64,000 nt of DNA from Paracoccaceae bacterium (GTDB lineage: Bacteria; Pseudomonadota; Alphaproteobacteria; Rhodobacterales; Rhodobacteraceae), in NCBI GenBank assembly GCA_029244725.1, contig JAQWQJ010000089.1, positions 248,001-312,000 on the forward strand, in the 5' to 3' direction. A program made the position numbers and the translations under genes. A model generated the notes under the pieces. It searched no databases and was not told the origin of the DNA. It worked only from the letters and a program-made list of their open reading frames with translations. Position 1 is the first letter of the stretch; every line of letters begins with the position of its first letter. This document shows positions 11,132 to 54,360 of this stretch, piece after piece.

Positions 11132-11160
11132 TTGACGCTCTCTGGCGCCGGCAATAGTGT
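11132..11160 (+). promoter_or_regulatory. Probable sigma-70 promoter of the ilv operon
   Basis: TTGACG (11132-11137), 17-base spacer, TAGTGT (11155-11160). This would start transcription near 11167, about 20 bases before the leader-peptide start codon. Confidence 0.55.
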
Positions 11161-11186
11161 GCCGCACAGCAGCAAGGAGAAGCAAT

Positions 11187-11234
11187 TTGACCAAACTTGT
11201 GGTCATTGTCGAAAAATCGCGCATGGGCCGGTAA
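11187..11234 (+). CDS. Branched-chain amino acid leader peptide of the ilvIH attenuator
   Basis: A 15-codon reading frame starting with TTG and preceded by AAGGAG at 7-base spacing. The peptide is MTKLVVIVEKSRMGR: a run of Leu-Val-Val-Ile-Val (codons 4-8), the three amino acids made through acetolactate synthase. It is followed by mutually exclusive RNA pairings and a terminator ahead of ilvI. This is the classical attenuation layout: ribosomes stall at the control codons when charged Leu, Val or Ile tRNA is scarce. It is too short for ordinary ORF calling. Supported by codons, ribosome binding site and context; no homology is claimed. Confidence 0.75.
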   Translation: MTKLVVIVEKSRMGR

Positions 11235-11288
11235 CGGATCCCTTAGAGGAAACCATGCGCCCCCGAAATTGAACGGGGGCTTTTTTTT
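11219..11288 (+). terminator. ilvIH attenuator: terminator and competing stem
   Basis: The terminator is a 7-bp GC stem (11259-11265 with 11274-11280) with an 8-base loop and a run of eight T (11281-11288). An alternative 8-bp pairing, GCGCATGG (11219-11226) with CCATGCGC (11253-11260), overlaps the base of the terminator stem and uses sequence at the end of the leader peptide frame. Ribosome position on the leader peptide can therefore choose between the structures. Which pairing acts as antiterminator would need folding analysis. Confidence 0.75.
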
Positions 11289-11346
11289 GAGGCTAAACTG
11301 AAACGAATTCTGCGAAATGCAGGGTGTCATAAATTTGGAGATCACA

Positions 11347-13098
11347 ATGACACGTCAGATGACCGGAGCGAAAATGGTAGTACAGGCCCTTAAAGATCAG
11401 GGCGTGGACGTCGTATTCGGATACCCCGGGGGCGCGGTCCTACCGATTTACGATGAAATATTTCAGCAAAATGATATTCAACATATTTTAGTGCGTCACG
11501 AACAGGGCGCGGTTCACGCGGCCGAGGGCTACGCACGTTCGACGGGCAAACCCGGTGTTGTTCTTGTGACTTCTGGTCCAGGTGCGACGAATGCTGTGAC
11601 CGGCCTGACCGACGCGTTGCTCGACTCTATCCCTATCGTTGTTCTGACGGGTCAAGTTCCGACCTTTATGATCGGTTCTGATGCGTTTCAGGAAGCCGAC
11701 ACCGTTGGCATCACGCGCCCATGCACCAAACACAATTGGCTTGTGAAAGAAACGTCGCGCCTTGCAGGTACGATCCACGAGGCATTCCATGTCGCGACTT
11801 CGGGTCGTCCGGGGCCGGTTCTGATCGACATTCCAAAAGACGTTCAATTTGCCACTGACGAATACACCACCCCAACACCTGCACGCAGCCACTATCAGCC
11901 TCAGGTTAAGGGCGATATGGCTACAATCACCGATTTGGTCGAGGCCATGGAAAAGGCTGAACGTCCGGTGTTCTACACAGGTGGCGGCGTGATCAACTCT
12001 GGCAATTCCGCCAGCATCTTGTTGCGCGAAATAGTCGAGGCTACAGGCTTTCCCATCACGTCCACCCTCATGGGACTTGGCGCATATCCTGCGTCTGGCA
12101 AAAAATGGATCGGCATGCTGGGGATGCACGGTCTCTATGAGGCCAACATGGCCATGCATGGTTGTGATCTTATGATCAACATCGGTGCTCGATTTGACGA
12201 TCGGATCACGGGTCTGCTCGACGCGTTTAGCCCGAACTCTAAAAAGGCGCACATCGACATCGATCCCTCGTCGATCAACAAGGTTATTCGCGTAGATTTC
12301 CCAATCGTCGGCGACGTTGCGCATGTTCTTGAAGATATGTTGAACATTTGGAAGGCACGTGGACGCAAAACCAACTCGTCGGCTGTCGCTAAATGGTGGT
12401 CTCAGATTGAAGAGTGGCAAAGCGTTGATTGTCTTGCTTACAAGCAGGCGCCTGGCACAATTCGCCCGCAGCACGCATTGGCGCGTCTTGAAGCACTTAC
12501 GAAAGACCACGACCGTTATATCTGCACCGAAGTTGGTCAACACCAAATGTGGGCGGCGCAATACCTCAACTTTGAAGACCCCAACCGCTTTATGACTTCG
12601 GGTGGTCTTGGCACAATGGGATATGGCTTTCCTTCATCTGTTGGCGTTCAAATGGCACACCGCGACTCTTTGGTGATCAACGTTGCTGGTGAGGCGTCTT
12701 GGCTGATGAACATGCAGGAAATGGGCACGGCCGTTCAGTACCGCCTGCCCGTCAAACAGTTCATTTTGAACAACGAGCGTCTTGGTATGGTCCGCCAATG
12801 GCAGGAACTTTTGCACGGTGAGCGTTATTCGCAATCTTGGTCAGAAGCGCTGCCTGACTTCGTAAAATTGGCCGAGGCTTTTGGGGCCAAAGGTATCCTT
12901 TGCGACAACGAAGCCGATCTTGATGAAGCGATCCTTGAGATGATTAATCACGATGGTCCAGTAATCTTTGATTGCTTGGTCGAAAAGCATGAGAACTGCC
13001 TGCCGATGATCCCGTCAGGGGAACCTCATAACAAGATGCTTTTGCCCAATGCGAGCACACAAGACGCTATCGGTTCGTCTGGCGCGGTTATGGTTTAA
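11347..13098 (+). CDS. ilvI: Acetolactate synthase large (catalytic) subunit
   Basis: The 583-residue thiamine-diphosphate enzyme makes acetolactate and acetohydroxybutyrate, the first common step to Val, Leu and Ile. It has FGYPGGAVLPIYDEIF at the N-terminus, the catalytic Glu in RHEQGAVHAAEGYA, the central FAD domain region (LGMLGMHG) and the C-terminal ThDP domain with SGGLGTMGYGFP. The usual GDGSF of the ThDP site reads GEASW here, a variant I recall from Rhodobacteraceae. Start chosen at the ATG at 11347 with GGAG upstream; a frame-compatible ATG at 11317 has no ribosome site. Controlled by the upstream attenuator. The small subunit gene follows only after an intervening ATP-grasp gene. 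Confidence 0.95.
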   Translation: MTRQMTGAKMVVQALKDQGVDVVFGYPGGAVLPIYDEIFQQNDIQHILVRHEQGAVHAAEGYARSTGKPGVVLVTSGPGATNAVTGLTDALLDSIPIVVLTGQVPTFMIGSDAFQEADTVGITRPCTKHNWLVKETSRLAGTIHEAFHVATSGRPGPVLIDIPKDVQFATDEYTTPTPARSHYQPQVKGDMATITDLVEAMEKAERPVFYTGGGVINSGNSASILLREIVEATGFPITSTLMGLGAYPASGKKWIGMLGMHGLYEANMAMHGCDLMINIGARFDDRITGLLDAFSPNSKKAHIDIDPSSINKVIRVDFPIVGDVAHVLEDMLNIWKARGRKTNSSAVAKWWSQIEEWQSVDCLAYKQAPGTIRPQHALARLEALTKDHDRYICTEVGQHQMWAAQYLNFEDPNRFMTSGGLGTMGYGFPSSVGVQMAHRDSLVINVAGEASWLMNMQEMGTAVQYRLPVKQFILNNERLGMVRQWQELLHGERYSQSWSEALPDFVKLAEAFGAKGILCDNEADLDEAILEMINHDGPVIFDCLVEKHENCLPMIPSGEPHNKMLLPNASTQDAIGSSGAVMV

Positions 13099-13110: not shown

Positions 13111-14424
13111 ATGTCCGAGCCGTTTACACTATCAGGCCCGCGTGGCGAAAATGAATCCCCAGAGGAATATTCACTTCGGGGCCAATATCTGCTGAGTGCA
13201 GGGAAGTTTGAAGAAGCTATCACGATACTTCAGGAAGCAGCAGAGCTGCTTCCAAACAACCGTAAAACCCAGTTGGCCTTTGCAGGTCTATTGACGAAAT
13301 TCAAACATTCAAAGGCTGCGCGGGATTCTTATCGTGCGTTTGTGGAACGGAATCCGCTGGGCGTTGCCCCCAAAGGTCGACACGAAAAGGATCCGCTGCT
13401 GTTGGTTGTGCGAGGTTTTGACAAAACCCGCCCGACTATCGGATTACGATCAAGCGGTGAGTACAAACCAAAACTACGTGGCGGTCATTATACGATCCAG
13501 TATCTTCTGCCCCGCGAAGCTGTTCCACGCCAGGCATTTACGATTCCAGGTAAATTGGGCGTCGACGAAGCATTGCTGCCAGATTTCGACGTAATGCTAA
13601 ACACCATCGCTGAACCCGATATTGAAGGTGCCTCGCTTACATCACTGCAAAACTATTTGGATCAAAACCCAACGACGACCATTATCAACTCACCAGAGCC
13701 GGTTTGGCAAACAGCGCGTGATCGAAACTATGAGCGCCTCGATGGGCTTGCGGATTTCACATTCCCAAAGACCGTCCGCTTCAAAGTCAAAAACGCAGGG
13801 CCCGGTGAATTCGCTGAAAACCTGAATAGGCTTGAAATGACAACGCCCGTGATTGTTCGTCGTGTGGGTACTCAAACAGGTCGAACGACACAGTTGATTA
13901 CCGGCGGTCATGACCTGATGAACTATGCCCGAAAGCCACTATCGGGTGAGTTCTATGCCATTTCCTATCGAGAAATCCTTTGGCAGAATGAGTACTTTCG
14001 CAAACTTCGTTTGTTTTGCATCGACGGCGAATATTACCCAGTCGTATGCCATCTAGATAAAGTCTGGAACGTACACGGCGGCAATCGCAAAGAGATCATG
14101 CGCGGCGACGAAGGTCTGCAGGCGCAGGAAAAGGCATTTTTGGCCAATTGGAAGGATTACGTCGGGCAAGGCAACGCCGACATCCTCTATAAAATTGCAG
14201 AAGCTACCAATCTCGAGTTTTTTGGCATCGACTTCACGGTCGACAATGACGGTAAGATCTTCATCTACGAATTGAACCCGTCAATGCGTCACAGCTTTGA
14301 TCACGCCAGAAACTTTCCGTATAAAATGCCATATGATCAAGCAACGTCAGATGCGTTTGAGAAAATGGTCTTGGATCGCGTCAAAACCGCTTACATATCT
14401 AAAAGAGGTTTAAATGCGCGATAA
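13111..14424 (+). CDS. TPR plus ATP-grasp domain protein between ilvI and ilvH
   Basis: A 437-residue protein whose gene starts 12 bases after ilvI. Residues about 20-85 form two or three tetratricopeptide-like helices (LRGQYLLSAGKFEEAITILQ, then ELLPNNRKTQLAFAGLL). The C-terminal half looks like an ATP-grasp fold: VIVRRVGTQTGRTTQLI, a strand with RLFCIDGEYYPVVCHL, FFGIDFTVDNDGKIFIYE and the metal-binding ELNPSMR (387-393). ATP-grasp enzymes form acyl-phosphate intermediates and join them to amines or thiols, but substrates cannot be read from the sequence. Its place inside the acetolactate synthase operon is conspicuous. It could be an amino-acid or peptide ligase or an operon passenger. Confidence 0.75.
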   Translation: MSEPFTLSGPRGENESPEEYSLRGQYLLSAGKFEEAITILQEAAELLPNNRKTQLAFAGLLTKFKHSKAARDSYRAFVERNPLGVAPKGRHEKDPLLLVVRGFDKTRPTIGLRSSGEYKPKLRGGHYTIQYLLPREAVPRQAFTIPGKLGVDEALLPDFDVMLNTIAEPDIEGASLTSLQNYLDQNPTTTIINSPEPVWQTARDRNYERLDGLADFTFPKTVRFKVKNAGPGEFAENLNRLEMTTPVIVRRVGTQTGRTTQLITGGHDLMNYARKPLSGEFYAISYREILWQNEYFRKLRLFCIDGEYYPVVCHLDKVWNVHGGNRKEIMRGDEGLQAQEKAFLANWKDYVGQGNADILYKIAEATNLEFFGIDFTVDNDGKIFIYELNPSMRHSFDHARNFPYKMPYDQATSDAFEKMVLDRVKTAYISKRGLNAR

Positions 14425-14507: not shown

Positions 14508-15071
14508 ATGGCTGCACTACACATAAAAAAAGGCTCCAACAAACATTCCGCGTATAATTTACGCCCAAACTTTAGTGACACTCAGGAAAGCCACACGCTA
14601 GCGGTCATCGTTGAGAATGAGCCGGGTGTCCTTGCGAGGGTCATAGGGCTATTCTCGGGACGTGGGTACAACATCGACAGCTTAACAGTTGCTGAAGTTG
14701 ATCACACAGGCCACCTTTCCCGCATCACCGTTGTGACAACTGGAACACCTCAAGTGATTGAGCAGATCAAAGCGCAGCTAACGCGTATCGTATCTGTTCA
14801 CGAAGTCCATGATCTTACGGTTGAGGGTGCTGCCGTTGAACGAGAGTTGGCATTAATCAAAGTTGCCGGCACTGGCGAAAAACGGGTTGAGGCTTTGAGA
14901 TTGGCTGACATCTTTCGTGCCAGCGTCGTCGACAGCACCCTTCAGAGCTTTGTCTTCGAACTAACCGGCACGCCTGATAAAATTGACGCGTTTTCTGATC
15001 TTATGCGCCCGCTAGGGCTGCAAGAGGTCGCACGGACCGGGGTTGCGGCGCTTTCGCGCGGAACGGAATAA
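14508..15071 (+). CDS. ilvH: Acetolactate synthase small (regulatory) subunit
   Basis: A 187-residue regulatory subunit with an N-terminal ACT domain (HTLAVIVENEPGVLARVIG and RGYNIDSLTVAEVDH, about 29-66), which binds valine for feedback inhibition, and the typical C-terminal domain (ELALIKVAG, LADIFRASVVDST, ELTGTPDKIDAF, GVAALSRG). It activates IlvI. An AAGGA-type ribosome site precedes the ATG at 14508. An 83-base gap follows the ATP-grasp gene, so it is probably in the same transcript. Its last 71 bases are overlapped by an antisense gene. Confidence 0.95.
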   Translation: MAALHIKKGSNKHSAYNLRPNFSDTQESHTLAVIVENEPGVLARVIGLFSGRGYNIDSLTVAEVDHTGHLSRITVVTTGTPQVIEQIKAQLTRIVSVHEVHDLTVEGAAVERELALIKVAGTGEKRVEALRLADIFRASVVDSTLQSFVFELTGTPDKIDAFSDLMRPLGLQEVARTGVAALSRGTE

Positions 15072-54275: not shown

Positions 54276-54360
54276 TCGAAGGCAGTGATCGAGATACTCT
54301 CTCGTTGTCTTCACCTCCCTGTTGGACTTAGGCCGAGCTTCGTGCTCGGCCATTTTTTTT
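54276..54360 (+). ncRNA. Candidate anti-Shine-Dalgarno small RNA
   Basis: An 85-base segment with no reading frame between lysR and purL. A 5' hairpin (CTCGA 54275-54279 with TCGAG 54289-54293) is followed by a pyrimidine-rich single-stranded stretch with CACCTCCCT (54312-54320), complementary to ribosome binding sites. A strong Rho-independent terminator follows (GGCCGAGC-TTCGT-GCTCGGCC, 54331-54351, then A and TTTTTTTT). This architecture is known from alphaproteobacterial sRNAs with CUCCC motifs, such as the rhizobial alpha-r families and CcsR RNAs of Rhodobacter. I cannot assign it to a named family. Confidence 0.5.
54331..54360 (+). terminator. Strong intrinsic terminator upstream of purL
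   Basis: An 8-bp stem (54331-54338 with 54344-54351) and a 5-base loop followed by A and eight T. It ends either the lysR transcript or, more likely, the small RNA proposed at 54276. Confidence 0.85.

Follow-up and report, generated by a model that had tools for sequence, protein, structure and literature searches.

A probable branched-chain amino acid attenuator before ilvI in the Rhodobacteraceae, and related elements before an MFS transporter gene

What decides whether transcription reaches ilvI, the gene for the acetolactate synthase large subunit, in this Paracoccaceae bacterium? In the window, which is the whole stretch of 64,000 nucleotides that was analysed, an earlier note had described a promoter, a leader frame behind a ribosome site, a stem of 8 bp and a terminator followed by eight T, lying in this order ahead of ilvI, and all of these parts can be read in the sequence. 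Between promoter and gene there is a translatable leader frame with a ribosome-binding site, carrying a run of codons for the products of the pathway that is conserved as a class, and an intrinsic terminator lies between this frame and the gene. We consider it very probable, from sequence comparisons, that the leader of the ilvI(H) operon is a ribosome-mediated transcription attenuator sensing charged branched-chain tRNAs. The features concerned are the following.

11132-11137, + strand: −35 element TTGACG (direct sequence reading and comparison of relatives)
11155-11160, + strand: −10 element TAGTGT, with a 17-nt spacer to the −35 element (comparison of relatives)
11174-11179, + strand: leader ribosome-binding site AAGGAG (direct sequence reading)
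11187-11234, + strand: leader frame MTKLVVIVEKSRMGR of 15 codons, TTG start at 11187, stop TAA at 11232-11234 (sequence, alignment)
11196-11210, + strand: putative regulatory codons CTT GTG GTC ATT GTC, that is Leu-Val-Val-Ile-Val, codons 4-8 of the leader
11219-11226, + strand: antiterminator 5′ arm, inside leader codons 11-14 (folding, alignment)
11228-11237, + strand: mini hairpin CCG-GUAA-CGG, whose loop contains the leader stop codon (alignment)
11253-11260, + strand: antiterminator 3′ arm, with 11259-11260 common to the terminator (folding, alignment)
11259-11280, + strand: intrinsic terminator hairpin of 7 G-C pairs (terminator scan, alignment)
11281-11288, + strand: terminator T8 tract (direct sequence reading, terminator scan)
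11347-13098, + strand: ilvI, acetolactate synthase large subunit (exceeds the cut-offs of NF006581 and TIGR00118; Pfam domains TPP_enzyme N, M and C)
14508-15071, + strand: ilvH, acetolactate synthase small subunit (ALS_ss_C and ACT domains)

The leader was compared with those of 80 relatives of ilvI, the best among at least 589. The titles of these loci name mostly Rhodobacteraceae, Paracoccaceae or genera that we take to be placed there, Ruegeria and Phaeobacter species among them; a few titles (L017, L069, L071) are broader or carry other names. An anchor pattern matched 74 of the 80 loci and L044, L072 and L073 were anchored by hand, which gives, with the window, an alignment of 78 sequences; the alignment excludes L015, where the contig ends, L048, which showed no leader, and the divergent L060. 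A generic scan of the window for promoters did not list TTGACG/TAGTGT, and the comparison with relatives supports this promoter. In all 78 aligned sequences TTGAC occurs no more than 110 nt ahead of the leader start, and in 74 of them it lies 51-63 nt before this start; 9% of base shuffles hold one. With the sequences aligned at TTGAC, the first two places of the −10 element are T in 91% and A in 95%. The core of the leader ribosome site (AGGA, GGAG, AAGG or GAGG) is present in 76 of 78.

The same comparison tested the conservation on which the earlier note had made its proposal depend, and the proposal withstood it. A leader with the same end position before the terminator is kept in 77 of the 80 loci, and codons 4-8 are all Ile, Leu or Val in 65 of the 78 sequences, with four of five in 11, three in one and two in one, so that these places hold 374 such codons out of 390. 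Leu, Val and Ile interchange there among relatives; it is thus the amino-acid class that is conserved and not one peptide. Place 1 holds a non-start codon in six alignment rows, because the leader there starts one codon earlier (16 codons), and the run of control codons is degraded in L073. In the locus of Nereida (L048), the 200 nt before ilvI keep the TTGACG promoter with no leader or terminator seen, and the attenuator has likely been lost.

The choice among synonymous codons is also unusual. Of the 87 Leu codons at places 4-9, 44 are CTA, where the ilvI genes of these loci have 1.7%; for GTA the figures are 115 of 213 Val codons and 4.5%. GTT is underrepresented (2 of the 213 Val codons; 15.5% in the ilvI genes), which argues that the bias towards rare codons is not a mere preference for A or T. 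GGA accounts for 44 of the 56 Gly codons at these places, all 44 at place 9, against 5.4% of Gly codons in ilvI. The window does not share the CTA/GTA preference of its relatives (CTT GTG GTC ATT GTC). At codon 9, which directly follows the control codons, 44 of 78 leaders have GGA and the window has GAA (11211-11213).

Folding of the window pairs 11219-11226 with 11253-11260, and this helix is paired in 92.7% of the cells of the 78-sequence alignment. The 7 pairs of the terminator are formed in every one of 546 cells. The earlier note had called the 8-bp stem "competing"; the stem is real and conserved, but the competition is partial, as only bases 11259-11260 (alignment columns 82-83) are common to stem and terminator. 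A third base (column 84) is shared where column 32 is G, in 33 of the 78 sequences, and the overlap reads GC or GCC. The 5′ arm or the terminator can hold 11259-11260, not both. In one relative in which the element precedes a transporter gene (L213), stem and terminator do not overlap.

Around the stop codon, most sequences form CCG-GUAA-CGG or CCG-GUGA-CGG with the stop codon in the loop; 93.6% of the cells of this mini hairpin are paired, and it is kept by the variants GATC/GATC (L057), GCG/CGC (L075) and CCU/AGG (L053). Covariation had been proposed as a check. All three pairs of the mini hairpin show double changes, whereas the main helix has them in a single pair, where L029 combines CAC with GTG, replacing Arg by His in the peptide and keeping the pair. 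Covariation is thin in the main stem as this stem hardly varies; it is imperfect in L073 and L066. Across both stems, double changes affect four pairs in six cells, which 0 of 500 shuffles attained, and pairing falls to 17-54% when the partners are slid by 1-3 columns. Since all these double changes are found among relatives of one family, they would count as support for the two stems and not as proof.

A covariance model, R1, was built from the element and searched for in family genomes at a match threshold of E ≤ 0.01. It found one place in the window's own genome and matched 131 of the 149 family genomes searched, which represent one genus each. In 128 of the 131 a match shares the strand of ilvI and precedes it by 24-111 nt, and in the remaining three (G291, G294 and G298) the element precedes a transporter gene. 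A weak second match in G415 (L234, L265), which no transporter follows, was discarded. G314 carries two ilvI copies (C49, C24), each with its own attenuator, as a mixed bin or a duplication would give. Of the 18 unmatched genomes 17 were inspected, together with G291 and G294; among these 19 regions upstream of ilvI, 12 hold a terminator-like site and eight a leader with at least four consecutive Ile, Leu or Val codons. Divergent attenuators are thus probably more widespread than the model shows.

These leaders bear on a different reading, in which the leader peptide or the short terminated RNA also acts in trans, like peTrpL/rnTrpL of Sinorhizobium meliloti. The C-terminal R-M-G-R of the leader is nearly invariant in the alignment, and such action is reported for the trp attenuator RNA and peptide in the sections of PMC10117765 that deal with them. 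However, R-M-G-R sits in paired RNA, and its residues change while the pairing is kept, as with the His of L029 and the compensated mini hairpins of L057 and L053; it is also absent from the further family leaders that keep a run of at least four Ile, Leu or Val codons and a terminator (8 of the 19 upstream regions). Moreover, the exchange of Leu, Val and Ile at codons 4-8 is what sensing of branched-chain tRNAs would lead one to expect, and a functional peptide would hardly tolerate it. We regard an additional action in trans as improbable.

For the attenuator in cis, we infer from the layout the following course. Transcription would start at about 11167, judging from the position of the −10 element, and a ribosome would then load on the leader. 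When Leu-, Val- and Ile-tRNA are charged, the ribosome would reach the stop codon and cover the 5′ arm 11219-11226; the 3′ arm would stay free, the terminator would close down to the U tract, and the transcript would end at about 120 nt. If one of these tRNAs is short, the ribosome would stall on codons 4-8, with its downstream edge at most at the start of the 5′ arm. This arm could then pair with the 3′ arm, taking away the bottom two G-C pairs of the terminator (three in some relatives), and the polymerase would continue into ilvI. The spacing agrees with such a course: with a ribosome footprint of the usual size, codon 8 in the A site would place the leading edge at about 11220, the start of the 5′ arm, and a ribosome at the stop codon would cover the arm. 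No hairpin sequestering the 5′ arm was seen in the window folds, which suggests that read-through might rise without translation.

How far the stem can oppose the terminator was estimated by equilibrium folding. When the 5′ arm is left free, the lowest pair of the terminator forms with a probability of 0.87 in the window and 0.77 on average over the 78 sequences; masking the arm, to mimic a ribosome at the stop codon, raises the mean to 0.98. Both stems mostly coexist at equilibrium, and a simple test for an on/off switch is passed by 11 of the 78 sequences and failed by the window. The closing of the hairpin base is the step that drives termination. Closing of the last two terminator pairs yields on average −6.3 kcal/mol (sd 0.8, 78 sequences; window −6.6) with the arm masked and −1.05 kcal/mol (sd 0.85, 78 sequences; window −1.2) with the arm free, energies that partly restate the conserved pairs. 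The alternative stem thus changes terminator closing by about 5 kcal/mol, yet is weak at equilibrium. Given this weak equilibrium competition, any switching has to come from the energy of the last pairs or from kinetics.

The strong terminator, and its coexistence with most of the stem, would also suit a plain premature termination or an upstream small RNA, with a leader frame arisen by chance and no sensing. Against this, the frame, its codon class, the choice of rare codons, the ribosome site and the position are all conserved. Dinucleotide shuffles of 11132-11346 gave a frame of 10-30 codons with a run of at least five Ile/Leu/Val codons in 15 cases out of 5000; in 3 of 5000 a ribosome site, an exact AGGAG or AAGGA, accompanied the frame. 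The ilvI leader is the sole frame satisfying the same rule in the 64 kb on both strands, and the folding of 11160-11290 has a z of −3.2. A chance origin of the leader frame with its ribosome site is unlikely, and the TTG-started frame of 15 codons with five consecutive Leu/Val/Ile codons stands as first described. We hold termination without sensing to be very improbable. Least probable of all is a riboswitch, a T-box or a protein-binding leader, which the conserved multi-hairpin fold might recall but whose conserved parts the leader codons and two stems already explain, Rfam giving over the leader no family at gathering score and, in a permissive search, chance-level matches only (best E 2.2). 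Attenuation by a translating ribosome is thus preferred, being supported by the terminator fully paired in 78 sequences, the conserved promoter, the enrichment of rare codons and precedents in Alphaproteobacteria.

Two other parts of the window can be described here. Between ilvI and ilvH, a frame of 437 aa (13111-14424) has weak Pfam tetratricopeptide matches, no NCBIfam match, and no relative by tblastn at 1e-10 in the 80 loci, which cover up to about 2.5 kb downstream of ilvI. Of these loci, selected as the best from at least 589, 72 yielded ilvH; it lies at most 109 nt from ilvI in 51 and up to 2.3 kb away in the others. At 54297-54357 there is an Rfam match to SorX (singlet oxygen resistance RNA X), at 47.6 bits for a threshold of 46.6.

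Beyond the family, R1 was searched for with stricter filters in a sample of the class and matched 11 of 289 genomes. Four of these belong to the window's family (its own genome, two before ilvI by coordinates, and G252 by its leader alone), and no match before ilvI was found outside the family in this sample. We also looked at the region upstream of ilvI in 80 of 141 matched genomes of the class, mostly one per family and none from the window's family; a scan found a terminator-like site in 9 of these 80 stretches (that of L157 is just 69 nt long). Terminators before ilvI look uncommon elsewhere in the class, with a scan that would miss differently built ones, and the known rhizobial and Caulobacter elements show that they do occur there. 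In at least one of the nine, L129, a differently built leader, MSEVLVIRHP, precedes the terminator. Frames with EILSL-like ends were considered as a shared leader and rejected, as they were read as the end of an upstream gene, presumably miaA.

Outside the family, R1 gave seven class matches. The seventh (L099, E 0.009) was a bare terminator and was set aside; the other six (L093-L098) lie directly before a gene for a transporter of the MFS type. In five of these six genomes ilvI is located elsewhere, the sixth (G287) being outside the look-up. Inside the family, the element stands before a related MFS gene at L233 (G375), L235 (G291), L264 (G298) and L244/L266 (G294). L213 (G107), another locus with the element before such a gene, was found through the transporter protein and read by eye. 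A search with this protein gave 23 matches, of which 18 could be viewed and five had the element (L209, L210, L212, L213, L215), all except L213 already found by the model. The transporter frame was read by eye in L212 and L213 and also seen in L235; L218, L219, L227, L228 and L229 were left out. Nine comparable transporters are 47-68% identical, and the one from L093, the sole one tested, exceeds the cut-off of TIGR00710, the Bcr/CflA subfamily.

Most of these leaders lean towards Val: MHILIVVVGERRLDR, MNPKSVVVVVSRRCMVR, MTVTTVVVGAWRLDR, MKLQVDVVVEGCLGR, MSFLNVVVSVRCVVR, MTKSVVVVRRRVVR, MITVVVVVMRERRVDR and MQVSVVVGRRMGKAA or a longer form; the Ile/Leu/Val runs are weak or broken in L097, L098 and L266. 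The window's own genome has two homologues of the transporter and no second R1 match. Our judgement is evenly balanced on a reading in which one attenuator family would serve two targets, ilvI in the Rhodobacteraceae and a Bcr/CflA-kind MFS transporter (TIGR00710), with mostly Val-rich leaders, in seven other sample families and four family genomes, the transporter being a starvation-induced carrier of branched-chain amino acids, most likely valine. The TIGR00710 family is named for drug efflux. Import induced by starvation would be the simplest use, export being contrary to the logic of attenuation. A thin literature search found no description of an attenuator before such a transporter.

In the trp and ilv operons of E. 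coli, a ribosome stalled on control codons selects antiterminator or terminator, as proposed here; the antiterminator there consumes most of the terminator 5′ arm, whereas that of the Rhodobacteraceae element takes 2-3 bases. Attenuation of the alphaproteobacterial ilvIH operon by branched-chain amino acids was reportedly predicted by Vitreschak et al. in 2004. The earlier note was right that attenuation of ilv operons is established in other bacteria, and alphaproteobacterial cases are in print. A table entry in a 2008 paper gives a cis-regulatory element of ilvIH in S. meliloti, with reference to the Vitreschak et al. 2004 survey (PMC2573895). Attenuation in Caulobacter via an ilvL leader ahead of ilvIH is shown in PMC4117421, which refers to Tarleton et al. 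1994, and PMC1273637 speaks of a leader peptide of alphaproteobacterial ilvB as described before. As far as these descriptions go, operon and class are the same as here, and the Caulobacter crescentus leader has tandem Ile and Val codons with a rho-independent terminator (PMC2573895, PMC4117421). The Rhodobacteraceae element has a sequence of its own (15-16 codons, R-M-G-R-stop, the stop in a GNRA-type hairpin) and is set apart by comparison of descriptions. Among the matches listed by the literature search, no instance in Rhodobacter or Roseobacter was found. The mechanism at the ilvI instance is thus established knowledge, and the novelty implied by the earlier note is small.

In its geometry, the element resembles ilvBNC of Corynebacterium glutamicum, a member of another phylum, for which the pertinent part of PMC11857589 describes a leader with Leu and Val control codons and a side-by-side terminator and antiterminator overlapping only at GCC, an arrangement with mutational support there. 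That part also proposes a third, anti-antiterminator hairpin, of which none was seen in the window folds. The Rhodobacterales cysS attenuator uORFC-8-2 (PMC8632094), likened here by its description in that source, has the same order of tandem control codons and terminator, with Cys codons and cysS instead.

A single attenuator is thus extended to a family-wide, testable element with a covariance model. The geometry of its proposed switch is defined by 2-3 shared bases, a stop codon in a GNRA-type hairpin and, in most relatives, rare CTA/GTA control codons, and the element draws attention to an MFS transporter as a possible carrier of branched-chain amino acids.
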